A stretch of DNA of 64,000 nucleotides from Gallionellaceae bacterium (GTDB lineage: Bacteria; Pseudomonadota; Gammaproteobacteria; Burkholderiales; Gallionellaceae): positions 44,781-108,780 of the forward strand of contig DAIDMQ010000042.1 in the NCBI GenBank assembly GCA_027448945.1, given 5' to 3'. Both the position numbers and the translations under genes were made by a program. A model generated the notes under the pieces. The model saw only the letters and a program-made list of their open reading frames with translations, was not told the DNA's origin and did no database searches. Shown here piece after piece: positions 57,039 through 60,828 of the stretch; position 1 is the first letter of the stretch; the number at the start of each line of letters is the position of its first letter.

Positions 57039-58430
57039 TCAAACTTTCTCTCCACGCAGCGTGTGGCGTACGACTTGGGTAATACGAACGTCTATGAACT
57101 GGCCGATGAGGTCGGATGTGCCGACAAAATTCACCACCCGATTGTTGTCGGTACGCGCCGCCATTTCATTCGGGTCTTTTTTGGAAATGCTTTCGACCAG
57201 GGCGCGCTGCACCGTACCAAGCATGCCTTCCGCCACAGCTGCCTCTTGTTCCATGATGCGATCTTGTAGCGCTTTCAGACGTGCGGCTTTTACTTCATGC
57301 GGAGTATCGTCACGCAACTCCGCTGCTGGTGTGCCGGGGCGTGGGCTATATAAAAAACTGAAACTGTTATCGAAGCCGATGTCATCTATCAGCTTCATGG
57401 TGGCTGCAAAATCTTGTTCAGTCTCGCCGGGGAAGCCGACAATAAAATCCGAAGTGACGCAGATATCAGGGCGCAGGGCACGTACGCGACGGATGATGGA
57501 TTTATATTCCAAAACAGTGTGACCACGTTTCATCGCAGCCAATATCCGATCTGACCCAGACTGAACTGGCAGGTGTAGATGGCTGACCAATTTGGGTGTG
57601 TTGGCATATAAATCAATTAATCGCTGACTCATCTCTTTTGGATGTGAGGTGCTGTAGCGTATGCGGCCTATACCGTCGATGGCAGCCACGGCCTGTATCA
57701 AATAGGCAAAATCTACCGTATCGCCGTCCTCCGTTAAGCCTAGGTAGGCATTCACGTTTTGTCCCAGCAGCGTGACTTCCTTGACGCCTATGGTCACCAA
57801 GTCGTTAATCTCTTTTAATACATCTGCCAGCGGGCGCGATACTTCTTCACCGCGCGTATAGGGTACGACGCAGAAAGTGCAATATTTGCTGCATCCTTCC
57901 ATGATGGAGACGAAGGCACTGCCGGCGGTGGTTGTTGAGGCGGGAAGATGGTCGAATTTTTCTATTTCCGGGAAGCTGATGTCGATTTGAGTGCGCCCAG
58001 TATCTTTTCGAGCTTGTATTAATTGCGGCAAACGGTGCAAGGTCTGCGGACCGAACACGACATCCACATAAGGTGCGCGCTGTGCGATGGTCGCGCCCTC
58101 TTGGCTGGCCACGCAGCCGCCCACCCCTATGATGAGGTTGGGGTTGGCTAATTTATAGGGGCGCACGCGTCCGAGATCCGAGAAGACTTTGTCTTCAGCT
58201 TTTTCACGAATAGAGCAGGTGTTGAACAAAATCACGTCAGCCTCTTCGGGATTGTCGGTCTGTTCCATATCCTCATAAGCTTTCATGACATCTGCCATCT
58301 TGTCTGAGTCGTACTCATTCATTTGGCAGCCGTAGGTTTTGATATAGAGTTTTTTTAGCAAAATGCGTCTGTGCCTGATAGATGATTGGTTCGCGGGTGC
58401 GGATTGTAAGGCACGAGAAATAAATTTCAT
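57039..58430 (-). CDS. miaB: tRNA-2-methylthio-N6-dimethylallyladenosine synthase
   Basis: [44 protein letters not shown] radical SAM; TRAM domain. True start may be internal, close to KKLYIKTYG. Confidence 0.96.
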
Positions 58431-58474
58431 TAGCCCTAATTAACTTATGTGTATTCCCGATAAAAACACTTATA

Positions 58475-58520
58475 TAATACGAAAAGTTTCAGTCGAGTAA
58501 TACGAAAAGATTTAGTCGAC
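58475..58520. repeat. Two-copy head-to-tail 23-bp direct repeat upstream of a microprotein gene
   Basis: TAATACGAAAAGTTTCAGTCGAG | TAATACGAAAAGATTTAGTCGAC, 20/23 identical; a TATAAT at 58473-58478 abuts the first copy. Confidence 0.85.
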
Positions 58521-58564
58521 TATTTTAATGGCAACAACAAAATATAACTAATAGGGAGAATTAC

Positions 58565-58657
58565 ATGGCTTTCATCGCTACTTTCGCTTCTTTGTTCACC
58601 GCAACACTGGCTATCGTTTTTTCTGCTTGGATGATTATCCAAGTTACCAAGAAGTAA
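58565..58657 (+). CDS. 30-aa single-TM microprotein A (undescribed)
   Basis: MAFIATFASLFTATLAIVFSAWMIIQVTKK; SD AGGGAGAA 6 nt before ATG; paralogous to the ORF at 58856; followed by its own terminator. Confidence 0.75.
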   Translation: MAFIATFASLFTATLAIVFSAWMIIQVTKK

Positions 58658-58668
58658 ATGTCCTATCG

Positions 58669-58707
58669 AACAAAGGTGTAGCAGCTTGCGCGCTAGCCTT
58701 TGTTTTT
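58669..58707 (+). terminator. Rho-independent terminator after microprotein A
   Basis: ACAAAGG tg TAGC...GCTA g CCTTTGT TTTT. Confidence 0.65.
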
Positions 58708-58768
58708 AAATAAATAGTATCCTCCGTTTCTTGTGGCTTCTGTGTCACGGGATAATTTTCTATGCGCA

Positions 58769-58792
58769 AATTATTTTTTTTAAAAAATAATT
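58769..58792. promoter_or_regulatory. AT-rich perfect dyad just upstream of an extended -10 for microprotein B
   Basis: AATTATTTTTT-TT-AAAAAATAATT; TGCTAGGAT (extended -10) at 58794-58802. Confidence 0.5.
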
Positions 58793-58855
58793 GTGCTAGG
58801 ATGCGTGCCAGTTGTCTGGTGTGGTTATTCATAACGTTCTCGGGAGGAGAAAAAA

Positions 58856-58951
58856 ATGTCGTTTATCGCTACTATTTGCGCTGTTGGAACTATGGCTATG
58901 GCTATCGCTTTTTCGTTGTGGATGGTTAAAGAACTGTTTGCAGCCAAATAA
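58856..58951 (+). CDS. 31-aa single-TM microprotein B (paralogue of A)
   Basis: MSFIATICAVGTMAMAIAFSLWMVKELFAAK; strong SD GGGAGGAG before ATG; shares M-x-F-I-A-T...A-I-x-F-S-x-W-M with microprotein A. Confidence 0.78.
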   Translation: MSFIATICAVGTMAMAIAFSLWMVKELFAAK

Positions 58952-58965
58952 GCTGTTTCCAAGTA

Positions 58966-59005
58966 GGGCAATAAAAAACCAGCTTAGGCTGGTTTTTTAT
59001 TGCCC
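58966..59005. terminator. Perfect bidirectional terminator after microprotein B
   Basis: GGGCAATAAAAAACCAGC-TTAG-GCTGGTTTTTTATTGCCC, 18-bp perfect arms. Confidence 0.93.
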
Positions 59006-59076
59006 TAAGCTCTAACGCACTAATGGGTAGGGATATTATTGACTTAATATGGAGGCATACCATTACTCCGATTGCC

Positions 59077-60828
59077 ATGAAAAATCCCTTTTCTATCTTT
59101 ATACAAGCCTTGGGTAAAGGGCAGCGCGGTTCCCGCGATCTCACTTTGGTGGAAGCAGAACAGGCTATGTCCTTGATCTTGTCGGGGCAGGTAGAACCCG
59201 AGCAATTAGGCGCGTTCCTCATGTTGATGCGTGTAGAAGAAGAAACGCCAGAAGAATTGGCGGGCTTTGTGAAGGCGTCACGCACCAGCCTTAATGTACC
59301 TGACAGTTTCCCGTTGGTGTCACTGGACTGGGCGGCTTATGCAGGCAAGCGTAGGCAGTTGCCGTGGTTCGTACTATCGGCCTTGCTGCTGTCACAACAG
59401 GGCATCAAAACATTGATGCACGGAGCTAATGTCGAAGGGCGTTTGTGTGCCGAAGATGCTCTTGCAAGTTTGGGGATCATGGCTTGCACATCAGTATTGC
59501 AAGCCAATCAGCAATTGAATACGCAGGATTTTGCCTACCTTCCTTTAGAGGTGCTCAGTCCGCGATTAAAAAACCTACTGGAATTGAAAAGCTTGCTGGG
59601 CCTGCGTTCACCTATGCACAGTGTGGTGCGCATGCTCAATCCGGCTGCTGCCGCCACTACTATGATAGGGATATTCCATCCGGGTTATGACGTGTGCCAT
59701 CAGGCTGCAGCCCTTATCCTTGGTGATGAGAATCTTGCCGTGTTCAAAGGTGAGGGTGGTGATGCCGAGCGAAACCCCGACAGCCTTTGCACTGTACATA
59801 TGTTGTCGGGCGGCAAAACCTTTGAGGAATCATGGCCTGCGCTATTCGCCCAACGACATGTCAAAGATGAAAAGATGGATGTCTCGAGATTGGCGCAGTT
59901 ATGGCGCGGAGAGATTTCGGATGACTATGCCCGGCAGACCGTCATTGCGACAGCGGCTATTGCCTTGCGTGCCATGGGACGTGCCAAGGATATTGAGCAG
60001 GCGATGGTGATTGCGAGTGCATATTGGCAACAGCGTAATCCGGAAACACTGGGGGTCACCGTAGTACCTGCAAAAAATCGAATCGGTTCCGTGGCCTTGG
60101 TGGGAGCAGGGCCTGGAGATCCCGATCTGCTGACGATACGCGCTTTAAGACTGATCAAATCTGCAGAAGTATTGGTGTATGACAACCTGGTTGCACCGGC
60201 TATAGTCAACATGAGTCGTGCAGAGAAGATATTCGTCGGCAAGCAACGCGATAAGCACACTTTGCCTCAGGACGCGATCAACAACTTGTTGGTGCGACTC
60301 GCACAAGAAGGGAAACGCGTCGTTAGGTTGAAGGGGGGTGACCCTTTCATTTTTGGTCGGGGTGGCGAGGAAATCGAGACTTTAGCGGGACATTCGATAC
60401 CCTTCGAGGTTGTGCCAGGTATCACCGCAGCCTCCGGGGTCGCAGCCTACGCAGGCATACCGCTGACGCATAGAGACCATGCACAATCTTGTGTGTTCGT
60501 TACCGGCCACCTTAAGGATGGCAGCATGGATTTGGATTGGGATGCACTATCCAGACCGCATCAAACCGTGGTGGTTTACATGGGCTTGTTGGGTGTGGAG
60601 ACGCTTTGTGTGCAACTGATAGCACATGGCATGAGTTCAAATACGCCCGCAGCATTGGTGCAACAGGGTACGACTATCAATCAGCGCGTACTAGTGGGGA
60701 CACTCAAGACCCTTCCGGCAATCGTCTTGCGTGAACAGCCTCGTGCACCAACACTCATCATCGTTGGAGGGGTGGTCAGTCTGCGTGAGAAGTTGGATTG
60801 GTATCAGCCTCGGAGCACCAATCATTAA
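59077..60828 (+). CDS. Fusion: TrpD2/YbiB-like (glycosyl transferase family) domain + uroporphyrinogen-III C-methyltransferase (SUMT)
   Basis: N-half: [63 protein letters not shown]-half: [77 protein letters not shown]. Start moved from 59023 to MKNPFSIF. Confidence 0.93.

Follow-up and report, generated by a model that had tools for sequence, protein, structure and literature searches.

TW-A and TW-B, a pair of tandem microproteins found in the Gallionellaceae, are probably small inner-membrane proteins that serve the cbb3 oxidase (CcoNOQP) of this family, with TW-B most likely acting as a core accessory subunit. The evidence counted toward this reading consists of two conserved reading frames that look translated, separate expression signals, a strict dependence on ccoN in well-assembled genomes, three kinds of adjacency to cco genes, and a leader resembling that of ccoN. 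From these data, we infer that the TW proteins associate physically with the cbb3 oxidase.

Two short genes with separate expression signals

The window analyzed here is a 64,000-nucleotide stretch of DNA from a Gallionellaceae bacterium. TW-A (58565..58657, plus strand) encodes the upstream paralogue, a single-TM microprotein of 30 aa, and TW-B (58856..58951, plus strand) encodes the core paralogue, a single-TM microprotein of 31 aa with K at position 25. A sequence-only reading of this DNA had placed both ORFs at exactly these coordinates and had aligned the products without gaps over residues 1 to 23 with 12 identities, and both observations were reproduced. Each ORF was also said to have a Shine-Dalgarno sequence, and these are present as GGGAG for TW-A (58554..58558, plus strand) and GGGAGGAG for TW-B (58842-58849, plus strand). 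The further claim that each ORF has its own terminator needed correction in one detail: hairpins follow both frames, but the perfect arms of the TW-B rho-independent terminator (58964..59007, plus strand; conserved 3' of TW-B in other loci) are 20 bp rather than 18 bp long, and the terminator-like hairpin 3' of TW-A (58668..58705, plus strand), which precedes a T run, is imperfect.

The promoters of TW-A and TW-B differ, and each is separately conserved. An alignment of 48 loci defined a conserved TW-A promoter region at 58453..58478 (plus strand; ATTCCCGATAAAAACACTTATATAAT), in which the TATAAT −10 element (58473-58478) is accompanied by a conserved element upstream and a TTTAGTCAACTAT element downstream. 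The TW-B promoter has an extended −10 element at 58792..58802 (plus strand; TGTGCTAGGAT) that reads TGTGCTA(C/G)GAT across the family; the leader after it is conserved too and carries a strong GGGAGGAG ribosome-binding site. Nearly all of 70 aligned leaders keep TGTGCTACGAT/TGTGCTAGGAT. A search of nine genomes for a regulon under the TW-A promoter returned a single match in each of three, always at TW-A itself, and the idea was dropped. An FNR-type box was found upstream of only 1 of 126 TW copies. Two further elements were observed in the noncoding DNA. Many loci, a subset of the total, have a covarying dyad (GCCTGCG...CGCCGGGC; GCC-T-(stem)-CGGGC) located 59 to 65 nt before the TW-B −10 element, which may be a regulator site or an RNA hairpin; it lies in the A-B gaps of relatives, and its counterpart in the window (58720-58790) is degenerate. 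Downstream of the TW-A −10 element, the window contains a TAATACGAAAAG-TTTAGTCGA tandem repeat (58475-58525), and the opposite strand of the same stretch has TTGACT-like elements that may serve miaB.

The miaB gene (57039..58430, minus strand) is the divergent syntenic neighbor and lies outside the TW unit. Other neighbors in the window are a gene (59023-60828) encoding a TrpD2-like glycosyltransferase-family domain fused to uroporphyrinogen-III C-methyltransferase, a gene for an Mrp/NUBPL-type ATPase, and a gene that we take from its sequence to be recQ. The pair is divergent from miaB in most loci and the genes on the far side vary, indicating that the TW pair is not part of an operon.

A 48-row profile (A2; E ≤ 0.05) detected homologues in 111 of the 158 Gallionellaceae genomes, and a two-sequence profile at a loose threshold detected them in 120; the conservation in relatives that the sequence-only reading had proposed as a check is thus borne out. 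The copies collected comprise 45 of the A type, 45 of the B type, and ∼35 single copies. Paired copies are 165 to 209 nt apart across the family, often beside miaB and with a spacing of ∼190 nt, as in the window. Of 42 distinct B proteins, 37 have lysine at position 25, as do 28 of 32 single-copy proteins and none of 43 distinct A proteins; single copies are thus mostly of the B type, and B is the core form.

Co-occurrence with ccoN and proximity to the cco cluster

The distribution of TW was compared with that of ccoN, detected by TIGR00780, in genomes at least 90% complete. Both were present in 70 genomes and both absent from 23; five had ccoN without TW, and none had TW without ccoN (Fisher p 6.7e-18). 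For genus g1 (Gallionella; g14 denotes Sideroxydans) alone, the corresponding counts were 38, 8, 1, and 0 (p 2.9e-8). All genomes with TW and no ccoN are at most 87% complete. Among the 15 g1 genomes lacking TW, ccoN is also missing in 12; the other three are G040 and G087, which are incomplete and have no miaB match, and G082, whose contig breaks off at the start of miaB. As controls, we used the bc1 Rieske protein and a Cyc2-type heme motif; neither was linked to TW within g1 (p 0.57 to 1.0) or when genus g11 was left out. An initially apparent link to Cyc2 iron oxidation disappeared under both restrictions, as did a link to bc1. Several TW-lacking genomes retain other COX1-family proteins, so TW follows one oxidase and not oxygen respiration in general. 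Genus g11 (G094-G112), which we take to be Nitrotoga-like by its gene content (compare Candidatus Nitrotoga, PMC10734462), mostly has no MiaB match at E 1e-120; in the order as a whole, 137 of 140 good genomes have such a match.

On a MiaB tree, TW and ccoN are jointly lost in several separate places where sister genomes keep both (G036 versus G038, G031/G032 versus G000/G068/G072, and within the groups G044-G049 and G050/G051/G061/G081). An independent-pairs test on well-supported branches yielded four usable pairs, with a mean of 2.6 in agreement and none in disagreement, too few for significance. One close relative of the window genome, G031, has no ccoN and retains a decayed TW-B in which the promoter, leader, and start are intact and the rest of the frame is lost. 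Genomes with ccoN and no TW include G001, G004, and G089, whose CcoN is divergent (60 to 76% identity to the family type), and G082, with its assembly break at miaB. G157 is a clear exception: it is 100% complete, its CcoN is ordinary (85.5% identical), and TW is found neither at miaB nor at cco. Therefore, TW needs this cbb3 oxidase, and the oxidase can manage without TW. As a separate observation, the ccoN reading frame of one genome (G135:C24:14678-16060) is interrupted by a single in-frame TAG stop.

Twelve genomes have TW no more than about 5 kb from ccoN or the cco cluster, in three arrangements. In G007 and G010, TW immediately precedes ccoN and has the same direction; in G006, G014, G025, G027, G028, G041, G042, G048, and G057, it diverges from a DsbD_2 (TauE-like)-Sco-ccoN-ccoO cluster; and in G065, it occupies the 3' end of the cluster. 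In the genomes checked, the cco-adjacent copy is of the B type and is away from miaB. TW is not cco-adjacent in the window genome, and most genomes are likewise, with TW beside miaB and far from cco. The cco clusters themselves are ordinary (ccoN, ccoO, a divergent ccoQ, ccoP, ccoG, ccoH, and ccoI), and the CcoN of the window genome best matches the Pseudomonas stutzeri cbb3 structure (3mk7/5djq). Most cco loci also contain, between ccoP and ccoG, a one-TM microprotein of ∼39 aa (MNHDAVFWGVIIGVAGSAAVVAWLFYVLYRNAT...; L253:10682-10801 and equivalents, alignment A3), which is unannotated, has no Pfam match, and shows no similarity to TW; homology between the two was unsupported in a profile comparison.

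The leader of TW-B resembles that of ccoN. When 1.05 Mb of loci, chosen because they contain TW or ccoN, were scanned for CTCT-N0-2-GGGAGGAG-start, 21 matches were obtained, 13 before TW and 8 before ccoN; the element preceded none of the other ∼980 ORFs of at least 100 aa and was absent from shuffled sequence. A-type copies never carry it. The window TW-B leader and ribosome-binding site (58837..58849, plus strand) reads TTCTCGGGAGGAG, a near-variant of the element that relatives also have in their ccoN leaders.

In the accessory-subunit reading, TW-A and TW-B would each span the inner membrane with one TM helix and serve CcoNOQP. TW-B would be made from its own short transcript, with a leader and ribosome-binding site like those of ccoN, and would pack against CcoN/CcoP and stabilize the oxidase complex; the likeness of the leaders suggests that TW-B and CcoN may be produced in step. 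TW-A, a paralogue that lacks the conserved Lys25 and differs in its promoter and leader, would act as an isoform under another condition or at a second site. Features expected of a small accessory subunit were found in TW: a single TM helix in fewer than about 50 aa, occurrence only with the oxidase (70 of 70 genomes at ≥90% completeness), and linkage or a shared leader. Of the two functions that the sequence-only reading had offered, a membrane-complex subunit or regulator is strongly supported, with the cbb3 oxidase as the candidate complex, and a toxin-like peptide has no positive evidence. A more specific version, which we regard as possible but doubtful, is that the two proteins are interchangeable isoforms of a small cbb3 subunit, each under its own control, and adjust the oxidase of iron oxidizers to oxygen or electron donor, with TW-B:CcoN stoichiometry set through the shared leader by the same post-transcriptional regulator. 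In Sideroxydans lithotrophicus ES-1, the response to Fe(II) and thiosulfate differs between the two cbb3 clusters (PMC8788666), which makes condition-dependent isoforms plausible.

The main rival is that TW is a dedicated assembly or regulatory peptide, acting in cbb3 biogenesis (copper/heme insertion or the joining of CcoNO and CcoQP) or on activity and not as a subunit of the finished enzyme. The same ccoN co-occurrence and cco adjacency fit this role, and in nine genomes TW adjoins a DsbD_2-domain protein and Sco, both of which are biogenesis proteins. However, the ccoN-like leader suggests an output comparable to that of a structural subunit, and TW is a single short helix without metal-binding residues; we consider this role unlikely. 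Less likely still is that TW serves another membrane process and is simply retained alongside cbb3 in micro-oxic genomes. The position of most copies beside miaB and not cco would fit such a process, but two other respiratory markers do not covary with TW, and three cco adjacencies plus a ccoN-specific leader would have to be coincidence.

Database comparisons and selection on the reading frames

TW had no match at curated thresholds in Pfam, NCBIfam, PADLOC, or Rfam, and the A2 profile matched no PDB chain at E ≤ 10, including CcoM in the solved cbb3 structure. A search of the papers available, covering TW and small proteins or microproteins of Gallionellaceae, found none on them. These results agree with the earlier description of the pair as an undescribed family. 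In PHROGs, the only matches were weak ones to phage families that lack annotation (best E 0.002; 15 members). A similarity to the inovirus coat family PF05356 (best E 3.6e-4, 7 members) was read as shared TM composition and dropped, as all scores shown are below the cutoff and no relative was found in phages or viral contigs; a MotA/ExbB match (E 0.14) was treated as noise. Outside Gallionellaceae, 399 genomes of the same order contained no convincing member, the few matches near E 0.007 lying mostly inside long reading frames, and a class-level profile search of 185 genomes likewise found none. TW was not seen in the phages, plasmids, or viral contigs searched, and no diverged TW was found upstream of miaB at 26 loci from other families of the order. 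The TW family is thus confined to Gallionellaceae among the genomes searched.

These comparisons also bear on whether TW could be a tandem locus of type I toxins of the Ldr/Ibs kind, restrained by antisense RNA. The peptides are short, hydrophobic, and duplicated, each with its own terminator, and 12 of 44 loci have a possible antisense −10/−35 pair, partly forced by the coding sequence, that overlies the start of TW-B. The search for an antisense RNA suggested by the sequence-only reading, performed at the sequence level, nevertheless returned no Rfam match at the curated threshold, no known antitoxin RNA, and no strongly conserved antisense promoter. The nearest approach to a toxin family is a subthreshold similarity of one member to PepG1 (E 0.068). 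Absence from the plasmids and phages searched, one to two copies per genome, the strict tie to ccoN, and a B leader with a strong Shine-Dalgarno sequence that is exposed and not sequestered further disfavor a toxin, which we consider highly improbable.

TW proteins are 30 to 35 aa long and have a single hydrophobic helix; positions 7 to 24 are free of charged residues in all 117 distinct proteins, in keeping with the single TM helix proposed for each ORF. Of 125 distinct copies, 123 have a Shine-Dalgarno-like site upstream. The dN/dS ratio is 0.127 for B, 0.159 for A, and 0.142 for single copies (overall, about 0.14 to 0.17), so synonymous and nonsynonymous rates are unequal and both ORFs are constrained. 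The third codon position accounts for 315 of the 504 differences seen in 46 independent close pairs (p about 9e-41). TW-A and TW-B are selected protein-coding genes under strong purifying selection; the recurring pair, the Shine-Dalgarno sites, the uncharged core, and the dN/dS values bear out the earlier view that the frames are selected and not random. The flanks are structured and conserved, but this third-position bias, a dN/dS of about 0.15, and intact frames with Shine-Dalgarno sites in practically all copies leave an untranslated regulatory RNA with a negligible probability.

Relation to small oxidase subunits and significance

The closest known system is CcoM of the Pseudomonas (Stutzerimonas) stutzeri cbb3 oxidase, a 36-aa single-TM peptide found in one lineage. 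In Pseudomonas, CcoM is a small accessory subunit reported to stabilize the cbb3 complex (PMC8267372, PMC10433244). Like CcoM, TW is single-TM, tied to cbb3, and lineage restricted; unlike CcoM, with which it has no detectable sequence similarity, TW is often duplicated with separate promoters, is often beside miaB, and is only a putative cbb3-binding protein. CcoQ/FixQ is likewise a small single-TM partner of cbb3, but TW has no match to FixQ (PF05545), and TW-bearing genomes have their own CcoQ of 69 to 70 aa between ccoO and ccoP; this separate CcoQ rules out replacement, and TW is additional. CydX/YbgT of cytochrome bd, the analogy drawn in the sequence-only reading, is an oxidase subunit of about 30 aa with a single TM helix, but TW matches no Pfam or NCBIfam family and tracks ccoN; separate CydX-like ORFs exist (L274:198-284 and L285:12833-12919). 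CcoX (DUF4006), CcoY, and CcoZ of Campylobacter jejuni are also lineage-specific cbb3 accessory genes, and CcoX is needed for cbb3 activity in that organism (PMC8267372); TW differs in lacking a Pfam match and in lying outside the cco operon. TW shares with the Ldr/Ibs toxins a short, hydrophobic, tandem organization, but no antisense RNA family was found, and its distribution follows a respiratory enzyme and not mobile or repeat-rich loci. TW is a new family, probably one of the lineage-specific one-helix helpers of respiratory oxidases.

Gallionellaceae iron oxidizers subsist on narrow energy margins in low oxygen, with the cbb3 enzyme as terminal oxidase. If the accessory-subunit reading is correct, a conserved, apparently undescribed peptide pair invisible to standard annotation would alter the cbb3 subunit list, and the pair would show that the accessory peptides of oxidases evolve separately in individual lineages and can be encoded at a distance from the operon of the enzyme. 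The TW pair is a candidate for how these iron oxidizers tune their respiration.
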